Assembly: GCA_017467845.1 (NCBI GenBank)
Contig: JAFUKH010000018.1
Span: 1 to 63,323, forward strand
Reading direction: 5' to 3'
Length of the DNA: 63,323 nucleotides
DNA from: Lachnospiraceae bacterium
GTDB taxonomy: Bacteria > Bacillota > Clostridia > Lachnospirales > Lachnospiraceae
Under the pieces are notes generated by a model. The model saw only the letters and a list, made by a program, of their open reading frames with translations, ran no database searches and was not told where the DNA came from. Made by a program: the position numbers and the translations under genes. Below are positions 367-56,902 of this stretch, piece after piece. How positions within the stretch are numbered: position 1 is the stretch's first letter; each line of letters opens with the position of its first letter.

Positions 367-442
367 GTTTTGACCCTTTTTCTCATCCTAAATATGCTTA
401 TTATAACATTTCCAATATAAAAAAACTATCTTCACAAAATGT

Positions 443-627
443 AATGTCATTTCGCCCGGAAATTACTCTGTGAGGGAAATGATGTGTTTTATGAAGACCG
501 TTGGAAAACGTCAGTACTTAGCGAGGTATTTTCGAGCTTAGTACTGCTACGTTTTACATCGAGCGAAAGCGTGTCAGAATAAAACACATCGTTCTCTCCC
601 GGAGTAATTTCCGGGTGAAATAACATT
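443..627 (+). ncRNA. Family A structured repeat, copy A1
   Basis: Nested inverted repeat between two divergent genes. Outer arms 443-468 and 602-627 pair almost perfectly (two mismatches), and pairing continues inward through GATGTGTTTTAT and its complement. The 86-nt core at 493-578 is shared with copies at 6760-6939 (opposite strand) and 56677-56900. Inside the core a stem pairs AAAACGT with ACGTTTT, continuing with CAGTACT paired to AGTACTG. A second hairpin, 557-573, has a GAAA tetraloop closed by GC/GC. The strand is assigned by the core orientation. An RNA role is inferred; a DNA-level palindromic repeat is the alternative. Confidence 0.7.
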
Positions 628-736
628 GTCACAAAATATCAGTTGTTTTTGGAAGGAAAACATAAATTCTTCCGTAGTTTTCTTAAGATAGAAAGAGTAT
701 ATTGCTTATAGATTATTTGTAGGAAGTGATTTGATT

Positions 737-3947: not shown

Positions 3948-5712
3948 TTACTGATTCCCCCTTTCGAATCTTCTCGTATTCACCGTATTGATGCATAAAT
4001 ACGGTGTAGTAATATCCCTGTTTCTCCATCAGCTCATCATGATTACCGGATTCTACAATTCTACCTTCATCCAGCACCAGAATAACGTCCGCATCCTTAA
4101 TAGATGAGATTCTGTGAGCAATGAAAAATACAGTTTCCTTCTTTTCCAGATTGTCAAGAGCCTGCTGAATCTGAGATTCCGTCTCCATATCCACCGCAGA
4201 GGTTGTATCATCAAGTACCAAGATGGAAGGCTCCTTAAGTAGCGCTCTTGCCAGAGAAATACGCTGTCTCTGACCACCTGATAAGCCCACGCCGCGTTCA
4301 CCGATAATAGTGTCATACCCCTCGGGCATCTCCCGGATAAAGCCATCTGCATTTGCCACCTTCGCAGCCCATTCTACCGTTTCAAAGGGACAATCCGGTT
4401 TTGCATAAGCAATATTTCCCTCGATAGTATCGGAGAAAAGAAATACGTCCTGCATGGCCATACCGATAGTGGTACGAAGCACACGAAGATCCATCTCCTT
4501 CACATTCTGTCCACCGATTAACACCTCGCCACTGTTTACGTCAAAGAAACGGCACATCAGATTAACCAAAGTACTCTTTCCTGCGCCGGTTGCACCAATG
4601 ATGCCAACCTTCTGCCCCGGCTCGATTTTGAAGCTGATGTCCTTCAGAATTTCTTCTCCATCGATACTGTAGCTTACATTTCGAAATTCTACGCTGCCTT
4701 CCGGCTTCGGCGCACTGATATCGAAAGGGCCGGATACCGGATTCTTAATTCCGGGCTCCTCCTGAATGGTGGCATAAATCTTCTCCACAGAGGTTACAAA
4801 ACGAAACCAGTCATTTACAATCCAGCCCGCCTGACGAAGGGGTTCATTTAACATCCACAAATATCCGTTAATCATTGCCATATTACCCAGGGTCATGTCT
4901 CCGTTAATAACCATGATACCGCCTACCAGCATCAGTACAAAGGTAAGTAAATTGGCAAGGAACTCAAAAATCGGTACATGCTGCATCCAGATTTTGGTGG
5001 CTGCCAGCTCAGAATCGCGATACGCTGCATTCTCTCTGTCAAACTTTGAAATCTCAAACTCTTCCTTGGCAAATGCCTTAACTACTCTGTTACCGCTGAT
5101 ATTTTCCTGTGCAAAGGCATTTAAGCTGGAGAATCTCTCACGAATCTTGGAAAATCCCGGTTTTACACGTTTTGACTGAACGATGGTATTGGTCAAAGTC
5201 AAGGGAAGTACCAAAAGCATGGCACAGGCAATACGCCAATCTACCGTAAACACCATTACCAGCGAAATGCAGAATAGTAATACACATTCGTAAGTGAAAT
5301 AAATAACATGTGCCACAAAATGTCTGATTGCCATCATATCACCGGTCTGGCGTGACATTAAATCTCCGGTCTTATTGTTGTTGTAGAAGGTAAAATCCTT
5401 TGCTACAAGATTCCGGTAAATTGCATCTCGCATATCAAATAACATATTCTGGGAATTGGTTTCAAATATAAATAGAAAGAATAGTCTGATTCCCGCACGA
5501 AGCAATGTTGCTCCAATCATTAACAGTAAAAACTTGGGCAGTAAATCCAGCTGAATATTCGAACCATCACCGATAATGTCATCTACGATATATCCTGTAA
5601 TCTTAGGATTTACTATCGCAAGCATGGATGTAGCCGTTACCAATATCAGACCGAATAAGGTTCGCCACTGGTATTTTTTGAAGTATGAATAGAACCATTT
5701 CATTGCTGACAT
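3940..5712 (-). CDS. ABC exporter half-transporter, degenerate Walker B subunit
   Basis: 590-aa half-transporter with six membrane segments (about residues 15-320) and a nucleotide-binding domain. Walker A is GATGAGKST and the signature LSGGQRQR. Walker B reads ILVLDDTTSAVD, with Asp replacing the catalytic glutamate, and the H-loop FIAHRISS keeps its His. This is the expected non-catalytic half of a heterodimer with the gene at 2130-3947, with which it overlaps by 8 bases. It is first in the operon, preceded by GGAGGAG and a promoter at 5747-5775, and is divergent from an AraC regulator. Confidence 0.93.
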   Translation of the reverse strand: MSAMKWFYSYFKKYQWRTLFGLILVTATSMLAIVNPKITGYIVDDIIGDGSNIQLDLLPKFLLLMIGATLLRAGIRLFFLFIFETNSQNMLFDMRDAIYRNLVAKDFTFYNNNKTGDLMSRQTGDMMAIRHFVAHVIYFTYECVLLFCISLVMVFTVDWRIACAMLLVLPLTLTNTIVQSKRVKPGFSKIRERFSSLNAFAQENISGNRVVKAFAKEEFEISKFDRENAAYRDSELAATKIWMQHVPIFEFLANLLTFVLMLVGGIMVINGDMTLGNMAMINGYLWMLNEPLRQAGWIVNDWFRFVTSVEKIYATIQEEPGIKNPVSGPFDISAPKPEGSVEFRNVSYSIDGEEILKDISFKIEPGQKVGIIGATGAGKSTLVNLMCRFFDVNSGEVLIGGQNVKEMDLRVLRTTIGMAMQDVFLFSDTIEGNIAYAKPDCPFETVEWAAKVANADGFIREMPEGYDTIIGERGVGLSGGQRQRISLARALLKEPSILVLDDTTSAVDMETESQIQQALDNLEKKETVFFIAHRISSIKDADVILVLDEGRIVESGNHDELMEKQGYYYTVFMHQYGEYEKIRKGESVNG

Positions 5713-5742
5713 AGCTTTCTCCTCCGTTTGTCTTAATGTTTA

Positions 5743-5775
5743 TCCCATTATGGGACTTGTGTCCTATTTTCACAA
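5743..5775 (-). promoter_or_regulatory. Sigma-A-type promoter with palindrome over the -10 box
   Basis: Reading the minus strand, TTGTGA (5775-5770) and CATAAT (5752-5747) are separated by 17 nt, upstream of the ABC exporter start at 5712. The perfect palindrome TCCCATTATGGGA (5743-5755) covers the -10 box and could be an operator. The divergent AraC gene is the obvious candidate regulator, but that link is inferred. Confidence 0.6.
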
Positions 5776-5866
5776 TGACATATACTGTTATTAAATTGAT
5801 ATTTTCTGCTTTTTATTTTTTTCAAATCATGTATACTTACTAATAGGAGGAGGGAGGATATTTCTT

Positions 5867-6751
5867 ATGATCGCAATACGAAATATGGGATATAATTCGG
5901 TCCACAAAGACGGAATCAACATTGAAAGACCGGAAGGTGGCATGCGTTATCTGCTGCTTTTGGTAAAAAGTCCGGCGTATTTTGAATTTACCAAGGAACA
6001 ATTTCATAAAAGCATTACTAATCTATCCACAAACGAACTACCCTTGGAGGAGGATTTTTTTACAGACGAAGAGGCCAGACACAAAGGACTTATTCGTCAA
6101 TATGTGGAAAAACCTGCATTCATCATCTATACTCCGGGTGTACCTCAGTATTACTATCACGATATAGAATATATTAATGACTGGATTGTTTTCGAAGGGG
6201 ATGAAACTGCAGAATTCTTAGAGGAGCTGGACATTCCGCTAAATACCCTGACGAATTTGTATCATCATACGGAGCTTACCGGCATGATTCGTGACCTGAT
6301 GCTGGAATATCACCAAACAGGCTCCCATCACGAGAGAATCATGGACGCCATGCTGAAAACCATTCTTTATAAATACAGCGATATCTATCACCTGGAGACC
6401 AGACTTTCCGATAAACTAAAGCAGCACCGTGCTGCCTTTTCCCAGATTCGTAACAGTATTTATAGCGGTGGCAGTTATCAGAAGACCGTCCCCGAGCTGG
6501 CAGAAGAGCTGAACTTAAGCGTCTCCTATTTCCAGCATATCTACAAAGAGCTTTTCGGAGTCCCGGTAAAGCACGATTTAATCGGAAGTCGCATTGAACG
6601 GGCCAGATATCTGCTTTCCATTGATGTGGATTCCGTGGCTTCCATCGCAGAGATGTGCGGCTATGAAAATGTAGAACACTTCATCCGGCAATTTAAGTCC
6701 CTGACAGGTATGACCCCCAGTCAATATAAAGACAAATACAATCGTCGATGA
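5867..6751 (+). CDS. AraC family transcriptional regulator
   Basis: 294-aa protein with a C-terminal double helix-turn-helix AraC domain (about residues 195-293): the first helix-turn-helix around ELAEELNLSVSYFQHIYKEL, then an SIAEMCGYENVEHFIRQFK segment and the usual ending GMTPSQYK. The N-terminal 190 residues are probably a sensory domain without a recognisable cupin motif. The start ATG follows a strong GGAGGAGGGAGGAT site. It is divergent from the heterodimeric ABC exporter, so it may control that operon. Family A element A2 begins nine bases after its stop codon. Confidence 0.88.
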   Translation: MIAIRNMGYNSVHKDGINIERPEGGMRYLLLLVKSPAYFEFTKEQFHKSITNLSTNELPLEEDFFTDEEARHKGLIRQYVEKPAFIIYTPGVPQYYYHDIEYINDWIVFEGDETAEFLEELDIPLNTLTNLYHHTELTGMIRDLMLEYHQTGSHHERIMDAMLKTILYKYSDIYHLETRLSDKLKQHRAAFSQIRNSIYSGGSYQKTVPELAEELNLSVSYFQHIYKELFGVPVKHDLIGSRIERARYLLSIDVDSVASIAEMCGYENVEHFIRQFKSLTGMTPSQYKDKYNRR

Positions 6752-6759
6752 TGTGAAGT

Positions 6760-6939
6760 GTCATTTCGTTAAATCAGTGGCACCTTTCCGAGATGATATG
6801 TTTTATTCAGACACGCTCTCGCTCCGTGAAAAACATAACGGTACTAAGCTCGAAAATACCTCGCTAAGTGCCGATGTTTTTCAAGGGTCTTCATAAAACA
6901 TATCATCTCTTCAAGGGGACACTGATTTAACGAAATGAC
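6760..6939 (-). ncRNA. Family A structured repeat, copy A2 (core on minus strand)
   Basis: A perfect 20-bp outer inverted repeat (6760-6779 with 6920-6939; arms begin GTCATTTCGTTAAATC) encloses further pairing through GATGATATGTTTTAT and its complement, then the 86-nt family A core at 6807-6892 in reverse orientation. Compared with copy A3, the core stem changes from AAAACGT/ACGTTTT to AAAACAT/ATGTTTT, a compensatory double substitution. The hairpin loop is GAGA closed by GC/GC. It lies between two plus-strand genes (araC-type and M42) and may also terminate the first. Confidence 0.7.
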
Positions 6940-7005
6940 GCGTTTGTATTTTCTTAACAATCGTTGTACAATAATCACAGATTTCAAATGAAGAAAGGGT
7001 ATATT

Positions 7006-8040
7006 ATGATTACAAAATACGGAGATTATATTTTAGAAAAAGCTGCTGAGCTCCTTGCCATTGACAGCCCCACCGGTTACACCGCCGAGGCTGCTGAGTG
7101 GGTTATGAAGGAATTTGCCGCCCTGGGCTGCCAGGTTAAACAGACCATAAAAGGCGGTGTACTCATCGACTTTGGTGGGGATGATACAGAAAACGGAATC
7201 GTTTTGGAAGCTCATGCAGACACCCTAGGTGCCATGGTTACAGAGATAAAAGGAAATGGTCGCCTGAAGGTTACCAGACTTGGGGGTATGAATGCCAACA
7301 ACGCAGAAGCAGAAAATGTAAGGATTATCACCAAATTCGACGGTACTTATGAAGGTACCCTTCAGCTGGTGAATGCTTCTGTCCATGTAAACGGTGAATA
7401 TGATAAAACTTCCAGAGACTGGGATACGGTAGAAGTTGTGCTGGACGAGCTTGTGGAAAAGAAGGAAGATGTGGAAAAACTGGGCATCAGTGCAGGCGAT
7501 ATCGTATGCTTCGATCCCAGAACCAAGATTACAGATAAGGGATTTATCAAGAGCAGATTCTTAGACGACAAGCTGAGTGTTGCCATCCTTCTAGGTTATG
7601 CAAAATATCTGAAGGACGAGGACCGAAAACCATCCCGCAGAGTATACGGTCATGTGACAGTCTATGAAGAAGTGGGTCACGGCGGCAGTGCCTCTCTCCC
7701 GGAGGGAATTACGGAAGCCATCTCTGTAGATATGGGCTGTGTAGGTGAAGGACTTTCCTGCACCGAACGCAAGGTATCTATCTGCGCCAAGGACAGCGGC
7801 GGTCCTTACAACTACGAGGTAGTAAAAGGTCTCATTGAAGCAGCCAAAAAGATGAACGCAGACTATGCGGTAGACATCTACCCCTTCTACGGTTCTGATG
7901 TAGAAGCCACCTTGCGTTCCGGCTACGATATCCGCCACGGACTTATTGGTGCCGGTGTCTACGCTTCCCACGGCTATGAGCGAAGCCACAGGGATGGTGC
8001 TGTGAATACCCTAAAGGTACTGATTGGATATTTGGAGTAG
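7006..8040 (+). CDS. M42 family metallopeptidase (glutamyl/deblocking aminopeptidase type)
   Basis: 344-aa cytoplasmic aminopeptidase, a member of the dinuclear-metal M42 family that removes N-terminal residues from peptides and forms large dodecamers. Metal and catalytic motifs are visible: EAHADTLG (His and Asp, about residue 68), FLDDKLS (bridging Asp), YEEVGHGGS (catalytic Glu then metal Glu) and the final ligand in ASHGYERSH. The ATG at 7006 follows GAAAGGG; an in-frame start 14 codons upstream lacks a good ribosome site. The gene stands alone, and the family B hairpin begins ten bases after its stop. Confidence 0.92.
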   Translation: MITKYGDYILEKAAELLAIDSPTGYTAEAAEWVMKEFAALGCQVKQTIKGGVLIDFGGDDTENGIVLEAHADTLGAMVTEIKGNGRLKVTRLGGMNANNAEAENVRIITKFDGTYEGTLQLVNASVHVNGEYDKTSRDWDTVEVVLDELVEKKEDVEKLGISAGDIVCFDPRTKITDKGFIKSRFLDDKLSVAILLGYAKYLKDEDRKPSRRVYGHVTVYEEVGHGGSASLPEGITEAISVDMGCVGEGLSCTERKVSICAKDSGGPYNYEVVKGLIEAAKKMNADYAVDIYPFYGSDVEATLRSGYDIRHGLIGAGVYASHGYERSHRDGAVNTLKVLIGYLE

Positions 8041-8050
8041 TTAACAAAAG

Positions 8051-8440
8051 CTTCGAGCAAAATAAATAGGACCGTTCGTCCATGGTTAGACACTCTTATA
8101 GGTGTCTTCCATGGTACGTACAGTCCTATTCATTTTGTCGAAGACATGCCCCGACATAAACGTGAACGTAATTCGCCACTTTGGAAATTTCTACGCACTT
8201 TCTCTAAGCTTACAAATGCAGAGACCTAAAACCCTAAAAGAAAGCCGGCTATAAAGTTCTTATAAGGAATCCGCCTAATATACGGACCGATAGCAGAGTG
8301 TCTAACCTTGGAAAAACACAACAAATCAAGGAACGCAATGGCCGCTTTGTGAAATTCCAGCATTTTTGAACAGTCTGCAAATGTAGGGGAGGTATTCCCC
8401 GCACAACATCCTCTCATAATCAACTCTTGTATTTTATATC
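8051..8440 (-). repeat. Family B structured repeat, copy B1 (hairpin plus one arm)
   Basis: A long hairpin, 8051-8143, opens with TTCGAGCAAAAT and closes with ATTTTGTCGAA. The same ends occur in the centre of the 777-bp palindrome at 39433-39519, with a different stem sequence between. The following stretch to about 8440 aligns with the right half of that palindrome. Shared blocks, read on the minus strand, include a CAAAATGCT-like segment, TCACAAAG, TTGTGTTTTTCCAAGG and ATTTCCAAA. It fills the 414-nt gap between the convergent M42 and chemoreceptor genes. The short reading frames inside (for example 8226-8423) lack ribosome sites and do not keep their frame between copies. Confidence 0.6.
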
Positions 8441-56617: not shown

Positions 56618-56676
56618 ATCCTCCTGATATCGTGGTCATAATCAGATTATACCTCAGAAACTCATATAATAAAATG

Positions 56677-56900
56677 AAAATCGGTCACACCGGTGCAATA
56701 TGGTTTCGTTTCGAAATGGTTCTGTGAAAGAATGATATGTCTTATGAAGACCCTTGAAAAACGTCGGCACTTAGCGAGGTATTTTCGAGCTTAGTACCGC
56801 TACGTTTTTCACGGAGTGAGAACGTGTCTGAATAAGACATATCGTTATTGAACAGAACCATTTCGAAACGAAACCACACTGCACCGGTGTGACCGATTTT
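56677..56900 (+). ncRNA. Family A structured repeat, copy A3
   Basis: The longest of the three copies. The outer arm AAAATCGGTCACACCGGTGCA pairs with its complement ending at 56900, and a second outer stem contains GGTTTCGTTTCGAAATGG. Pairing then reaches the family A core at 56746-56831. Core stem GAAAAACGT/ACGTTTTTC is perfect, and the hairpin has loop GAGA closed by GU/AC. It begins two bases past the niaR stop codon (56903), so in this copy it also ends the nad operon. Confidence 0.72.
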
Positions 56901-56902
56901 CT

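Follow-up and report, generated by a model that had tools for sequence, protein, structure and literature searches.

The structured repeat in this DNA most probably represents a family of non-autonomous palindromic MITEs, which carry a conserved cruciform-like core and whose arms are kept matched by template switching; we give this reading a probability of roughly 0.75. Three copies (A1–A3) lie in the window, that is, the whole stretch of 63,323 nucleotides analysed here. The window's own genome (G000) is 2.995 Mb in size, in 105 contigs, and 85.8% complete. Its elements, which have IS4-type ends, would be moved in trans by an IS4-type transposase; they duplicate 10 bp of the target and seem to favour the loops of intrinsic terminator hairpins. 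In another species, the MITEs that carry this core have IS66-like ends and duplicate 8 bp. After insertion the arms would drift, and their pairing may be upheld mainly by template switching during replication, with one arm copied onto the other. The core most likely folds as a DNA hairpin or cruciform that aids the spread of the element; this is the weakest step of the scheme.

Copies of the element in the window

The positions that the earlier note had given for the three cores were borne out (Table 1). The change of one stem from AAAACGT/ACGTTTT to AAAACAT/ATGTTTT between copies was reproduced from the sequence, and the GNRA-type loops and the pairing of the arms within each copy are present as described there. 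However, this is not a three-copy element: searching G000 with the 96-base core gave 38 matches at E <= 0.001. Within the window, a 25-base tip pattern (up to 2 mismatches) matched 3 times, against 0.00 expected in shuffles. The arms had been called fully divergent but self-complementary; they do pair, but they are not fully divergent, as many G000 arms can be aligned with each other and the ends CAATGTCATTWAGTTTAG are common. The extent proposed for A1 (443–627) was too short: the whole copy spans 442–628 and is flanked by a 10-bp direct repeat on each side.

Table 1. Coordinates of the three copies and their parts in the window
Feature	Position	Strand	Basis
Left 10-bp target-site duplication of A1 (TCACAAAATG)	432–441	+	9/10 identical to 629–638
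Copy A1, whole IS4-type MITE, 187 bp (TAATGTC...AACATTG)	442–628	+	ends aligned by eye, flanking repeats
A1 core, three-way junction (closing stem, P2, P3)	490–585	+	38 genome matches, covariation
A1 P2 hairpin, T.T mismatch and tandem GA (CTTAGCGAGG..CGAGCTTAG)	505–556	+	cores found by BLAST
A1 P3 mini-hairpin GCGAAAGC, GNRA-type loop	563–570	+	(nearly) invariant alignment columns
Right 10-bp target-site duplication of A1 (TCACAAAATA)	629–638	+	9/10 against 432–441
Copy A2, MITE of ~188 bp, decayed ends	6756–6943	-	arms align with the family
A2 core	6800–6895	-	86% identity
Left half of host terminator GAAAATCGGTCA-CACCGGTG holding A3	56676–56695	+	joined flanks fold
Copy A3, MITE of 186 bp (CAATATGG...CCACACTG)	56696–56881	+	
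A3 core	56743–56838	+	86% identity
Right half of A3's host terminator (CACCGGTG-TGACCGATTTTC)	56882–56901	+	joined-flank folding

The ends of A1 were placed by eye against the CAATGTC/GACATTG ends of other copies, and those of A2, also by eye, against A1. A2 is located directly after an AraC-type gene (Pfam), the stop codon of which is at 6751; no target duplication was seen at its flanks. The 10-bp flanks of A3 match at 6/10 positions only and are palindromic, so that a duplication is not clear; when joined, the flanks of A3 form a terminator stem (z=-5.8). The window also contains a second repeat of ~350 bp (8048–8400). At least six more copies of it, 87–92% identical, are present elsewhere in the genome, and one of them is part of an inverted, overlapping pair.

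Ends and target duplications

The G000 elements are ~186 bp in size (182–187 bp for the core copies), with ends CAATGTCATTWAGTTTAG. The core copies have no coding capacity and, below the ~300 bp that delimit MITEs, are too short for a transposase. Twelve elements with CAATG ends (11 with the core and one coreless; 11 of the 38 core copies passed) are flanked by flush direct repeats of exactly 10 bp, the mean identity being 0.51 compared to 0.26 for swapped flanks and 0.25–0.32 for other lengths. Identity of at least 8/10 was found in 3/12 of these elements and in none of the controls. The remaining G000 core copies have ends that are decayed or of another kind.

Genome G012 carries elements with ends GTAACAGTTCAGCC (GTAAC). 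Thirty end pairs, in which one right end was used twice, gave a duplication of exactly 8 bp (identity 0.68 against 0.28; at least 6/8 in 17/30, compared to 0.9% of controls). At other loci examined, 3/9 end pairs reached at least 6/8 of an 8-bp duplication (L087, L137 and L138); L087 and L137 seem to be part of G012 itself, hence only L138, from a Robinsoniella MAG, is independent. Ends similar to GTAACAGTTCAG, joined to other arms, enclose the cores of L072 and L092 (both of one MAG), L100, L128 and L138. The terminal inverted repeats, together with target duplications of exactly 10 or 8 bp, mark the copies as miniature transposable elements (MITEs). The earlier note had itself set membership of a MITE or REP class against its proposal, and MITEs are what these ends and duplications identify.

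Coreless elements with the same ends are rare. They include L268 (81 bp, G000), which by eye looks like an internal deletion, and L302 (76 bp, G012), and make up at least 1/12 (G000) and at least 1/30 (G012) of the end-test sets. Locus L263 (G000:C73:976-1698), 723 bp in length, has the same IS4-type ends and, between them, a long inverted repeat; no core was seen by eye. L298 and L300 (G012) represent a 215-bp IS66-type form, in which the small hairpin AGGCATATCTTATATGCCT takes the place of part of the P2 tip.

Partner insertion sequences

Searches for related transposases covered 41 genomes of the genus for DDE_Tnp_1 (30 loci fetched); 21 loci were fetched for IS66. Ends nearly identical to those of the G000 MITEs bound 1.72-kb IS4-type elements in two genomes: the inverted ends CAATGTCATTAAGTTA of L373 (G019) and L380 (G054) are perfect and lie 1.72 kb from each other. 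NCBIfam identifies the L373 protein as a transposase of the IS4 family (NF033592, 144.7 bits against a cut-off of 115). The 10-bp duplication around L380 is perfect, and the longest frame of this element is only 275 aa. The CAATG ends conform to the IS4-subgroup signature -AATR--------WTW, which comes with duplications of 10–13 bp, as given in PMC2266710.

IS66-type transposases were found in L357, L361 and L365, between ends of the form GT(A/T)AC..TTCAG that are flanked by perfect 8-bp duplications. The ends are GTAACTATTCAG in L361 and L365 (G006) and GTTACAGTTCAG/GTTACTGTTCAG in L357 (G017); the L357 protein falls narrowly below the NCBIfam IS66 cut-off (165.9 against 180). L356 has similar IS66-like ends and no duplication. 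A target duplication of 8 bp is the rule for IS66 elements. The ends of the IS66 elements are similar, not identical, to GTAACAGTTCAGCC; with 8-bp duplications and GTAA-type ends like those of the IS66 elements of G017 and G006, the G012 elements are classed as IS66-type MITEs.

G000 itself yielded no mobilising IS4 element bounded by such ends, although at 85.8% completeness one may have been missed; DDE_Tnp_1 gave one weak match there (E 1.4e-5) and none of the 32 end hits formed an inverted pair 1–3 kb apart. G012 itself (73% complete) gave no IS66 match, and none of the six IS loci examined contains the tip pattern of the core.

The G012 core and the window copy are 80% identical (E 5e-15). 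As these cores are homologous whereas the ends and duplications differ, one core is, judging by the sequences, carried by MITEs of two IS families. This allows a more far-reaching, tentative and rather doubtful suggestion, that the core is a module of its own, a parasite of MITEs, which is passed between unrelated backbones (IS4-type, IS66-type and probably others). Transfer might proceed by nested insertion into hairpin loops; alternatively, template switching might copy an adjoining transposon end and so create new palindromic MITEs repeatedly. Such a module would be retained by selection on its DNA fold.

Fold of the core

Fifty-six cores were aligned: 54 of the 55 rows in which no pair exceeds 78% ungapped identity (L130 was dropped by eye), plus A2 and A3 of the window. 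RNAalifold predicted a closing stem, the long hairpin P2 and the short hairpin P3 with a GNRA-type loop. Both sides change in 22 of the 27 core pairs; 268 cells show a two-sided change, compared to 71.6 in shuffles and 24–56 in slid controls. The conserved fold with compensatory changes that the earlier note had claimed therefore stands.

The alignment rows were chosen by a pattern that fixes CTT, CGA, TAG and the P3 motif, so the invariant columns are partly built in. We therefore used a test free of this selection, the full-length distinct cores found by BLAST alone, with 13 partial matches left out. The T.T mismatch is present in 53/53 of them; the 5′ GA and the A of the 3′ GA are each kept in 51/53. 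Since the two-sided changes exceed those of shuffles and the odd pairs are kept in the BLAST-only cores, the core fold and its odd pairs are real. Neither the T.T nor the tandem GA would survive template switching between the two sides, yet both are kept; the core is therefore probably under selection.

Mismatch classes and arms

Changes in a functional RNA helix usually pass through G-U, whereas A-C is excluded. The 21 covarying core pairs (pair 43-49 was left out of the tally) comprise 1063 Watson-Crick, 31 G-U, 24 A-C and 54 other cells. The share of G-U is 2.6%, compared to 20% in SRP RNA, for which 11 covarying pairs gave 259 Watson-Crick, 66 G-U, 0 A-C and 5 other cells; this control is from 30 genomes of the same genus and its sequences are more alike than the cores (87% against 60% identity). 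Twelve tRNAs in the loci examined gave 248 Watson-Crick, 22 G-U (22/270, 8%) and 0 A-C cells, a soft control because ARAGORN favours paired stems.

The arms of 133 composite copies contain 257 G-U and 232 A-C. With near-identical arms removed, the inner arm (10–30 nt from the core end) has 72 G-U against 32 A-C, and the outer arm (30–70 nt) 75 against 114; the inner-arm ratio is 23:4 in G000. The mismatch count of the lower P2 stem was left out of the results, as the bulge was misaligned. Because G-U exceeds A-C in the inner arm, this part is likely under some single-strand selection, and the outer arm is without such a signal. Arm-to-arm copying changes Watson-Crick pairs into other Watson-Crick pairs, which would account for both the few G-U steps and the strand-symmetric mismatches.

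Many G000 arms align and share an asymmetric tandem-GA site (left [TG]GA, right TGA). Arm types were classified by eye; 23 of the loci L001-L027 were readable, while L007, L010, L021 and L024 gave no reading. The asymmetry is kept in 17/23 copies and L023 is unclear. Five of the 23 have one arm type on both sides, the left type in L001 (=A1), L003, L026 and L027 and the right type in L018. Copying between arms should leave just such a footprint, and in these five copies, A1 included, one arm seems to have been overwritten by the other. The largest difference between the arms of different loci is in the outermost part, with additional drift in the middle; some old copies (e.g. L021, L028, L030, L180) have arms that could not be aligned. 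Other arms are long and perfect (50/50 in L075, 54/54 in L138). Within one subfamily of G017, the arms align gap-free at a fixed length, with many paired differences.

According to PMC8794818 (Monttinen and Loytynoja 2022), template switching both makes and mends stems and causes instantaneous double changes. The hairpins described there and the present elements have in common the arm-to-arm correction of stems and double changes without intermediates; those hairpins, however, belong to RNA genes, which are under selection at the RNA level as well, whereas here the like footprint is found in transposable elements. It is on the mismatch classes and the copies with one arm overwritten that we infer template switching.

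The closest competitor, which we consider less than an even bet, is that the core forms a cruciform or hairpin of DNA on both strands, and that selection on this structure rather than template switching keeps the stems, for instance as a putative binding site for a structure-specific protein. A transition then leaves one hairpin with G.T and its counterpart with A.C, both equally disfavoured, and the observed G-U:A-C ratio is near 1:1 (31:24). The compensatory changes far above shuffles and the conservation of the T.T, the tandem GA and the GCGNRAGC mini-hairpins, which are unusually stable as DNA too, also fit this explanation. However, the arms of L075, L138, L092 and L089 are 98–100% perfect over 50–73 bp, with outer parts little shared between loci, which is beyond what a binding site needs. 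The 5/23 copies with one arm type on both sides argue against it as well, and no binding protein has been identified.

The idea that arms arise anew by inverted copying of the ends of host coding sequences was also considered and, after inspection of gene ends extending into arms, dropped. The best candidate, L025 (core at G000:C51:20022-20107), follows the SRP RNA gene, with its core ~130 nt downstream, and does not coincide with a clear coding end; other overlaps were small or weak. An inverted duplication of host DNA at L089 was rejected too, as its outer arms resemble IS66-type MITE ends (L100, L138) and nesting is as likely.

Comparison with a structured RNA

The earlier note had taken the element to act probably as RNA, and a structured non-coding or cis-regulatory RNA in many dispersed copies would agree with the strong covariation (22/27 pairs) and with the excess of G-U over A-C in the inner arm (72:32). 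We regard this as unlikely. G-U is nearly absent from the core compared to SRP RNA and tRNAs, and its ratio to A-C is 31:24, against 66:0 in SRP RNA. Orientation was scored for the 73 copies in L001-L173 that have an ORF no more than 500 nt away on each side. Relative to co-directional genes it is unbiased (26 coding, 28 template; 10 copies are convergent and 9 divergent), and GC skew indicated no replication-strand bias (33/73 positive). Neighbouring genes do not recur: across 117 loci, the 273 ORFs located up to 800 nt away gave six homology groups of at least three members, the largest being seven ABC ATPases, all generic as far as named (one is unnamed). Orientation and core mismatch classes thus argue against a cis-acting RNA, the inner arm excepted. 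The transposon ends and target duplications point the same way.

Rfam had 0 matches in the window at the gathering score. In relaxed searches, the elements of A1 and of four other loci did not exceed sub-gathering scores, mostly with miRNA-precursor and snoRNA models; a T-box match in L183 falls next to the elements, at the edge of the locus. The lack of a credible Rfam match agrees with the earlier note, which knew of no named class with this core. Taken together, the mismatch spectrum is not RNA-like, and the element is probably not an RNA.

Several copies (L174 at G000:C101:14525, L024, L029 and L180) are located just upstream of or between housekeeping genes, namely tpiA, thyA-dfrA, fabF and rsmI, which were named by eye from protein starts or ends.

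Abundance and distribution

Of 41 genomes surveyed, 25 of them of the same genus and with up to 22 matches scored per genome, 10 (including G000) contain core matches, and all 10 belong to that genus. Copy number is high in G000, G005, G012 and G017; G002 and G006 have 3 and 1 core matches, respectively. The degenerate 25-base tip pattern occurs in at least 117 stretches of genome contigs. With one exception, their titles name Lachnospiraceae, kin genera, or bacterium, Clostridium, Clostridiaceae, Clostridiales or Eubacteriales; several of the titled genera we take to belong to the Lachnospiraceae. One composite copy (L147) is on a MAG contig titled Bacteroides sp., the sole such title among the 117 listed matches, and this is likely a wrong label or a chimeric bin. 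The composite element is not universal, as 149 of 243 tip matches in the loci examined passed a simple P3 test. Viral contigs gave 0 matches to the tip pattern, and no paper on this repeat family was found among the literature matches listed.

Movement of REP/REPIN-like repeats by a Y1 (RAYT) transposase, via single-stranded DNA hairpins, is a very improbable source of these copies. REP/REPIN repeats resemble the present elements in having mismatched, bulged hairpins in high copy number; P2 also occurs singly and in tandem elsewhere in Lachnospiraceae, and the few-copy genomes G002 and G006 have a Y1_Tnp match. However, Y1_Tnp was found in 9/26 genomes of the genus and in none of the high-copy G000, G005, G012 and G017. 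The 8- and 10-bp target duplications, moreover, do not fit HUH transposition.

Insertion sites

With one repeat removed, the joined flanks of A3 read GAAAATCGGTCACACCGGTGACCGATTTTC, a terminator stem with a T run. Joined flanks of 13 G000 copies include several such stems; terminator-like stability is absent at A1, L004 and L020 (z -0.9, -0.7 and -0.2, respectively). The mean z of empty-site folding is -2.76 for 12 IS4-type junctions, compared to -0.42 for 24 IS66-type junctions. A permissive terminator motif is present in 8/12 IS4-type junctions (47/132 swapped-flank controls) and in 6/24 IS66-type junctions (119/552 swapped). A preference of the IS4-type elements for intrinsic terminator loops is thus moderately supported, its size being modest when judged by motif, and in several IS4-type copies (A3, not A1) the outermost arm is the host terminator stem. 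No empty site could be aligned in relatives of the genus, where gene matches to window 5000–8400 are mostly 65–69% identical.

Although the terminator stems at several IS4-type copies would suit outermost arms that act as bidirectional intrinsic terminators around a core of neutral filler, this is refuted as a full explanation, and we rate its chances as negligible: the IS66-type copies are not enriched in terminators, and the core is conserved across species and backbones. The earlier note was right that termination alone does not explain all copies.

Relation to known elements and significance

Mobile insertion cassettes of the IS4 family, e.g. MIC231, are the nearest relatives in form: like the IS4-family MITEs and MICs, the present elements are short and non-coding, with IS4-type terminal inverted repeats and a target duplication of ~10 bp, and presumably spread in trans. 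Different from the IS4-family MITEs, they add a three-way-junction core that is shared with MITEs of an unrelated IS family. The G012 elements have the GTAA-type ends and the 8-bp duplications (8 bp was observed here) of IS66-family MITEs, but their core is that of the IS4-type elements and their ends are similar, not identical, to the IS66 ends found. ERIC, Correia/NEMIS and BOX are likewise dispersed, palindromic, intergenic repeats that fold into long hairpins, BOX being modular with possible tandem hairpin modules. However, those repeats have one conserved set of ends, whereas the present elements share their centre and vary in their ends from one transposon family to another. REP/REPIN repeats differ in the two points given above, the Y1 transposase of their RAYT partner being absent from the high-copy genomes here and target duplications being present.

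A functional RNA is, as a standard, proved by its compensatory base changes. Very strong covariation together with a DNA-like mismatch spectrum, judged against RNA of the same genus as control, suggests that this proof may fail here. If this is true, screens for bacterial RNAs need a check of G-U against A-C, and the elements would offer a natural system to measure the upkeep of palindromes by template switching. With one centre conserved across two unrelated backbones, the questions of how MITEs originate and what their middles do are raised anew.

Other arrangements of the hairpins

Outside the composite element, the P2 hairpin occurs alone and in tandem, mostly at a spacing of ~44–48 nt, in several Lachnospiraceae (L063, L070, L088, L091, L105, L120, L133, L143 and L161), sometimes beside TATAAT-like sequence. 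L093 (3241–3552) has three 101-bp direct repeats with one P2-type hairpin each, and L168 (2380–2703) contains three tandem cores with a period of 107 nt. In L037 and L046 (G007), an extra hairpin of ~70 nt is located at the P2 tip.
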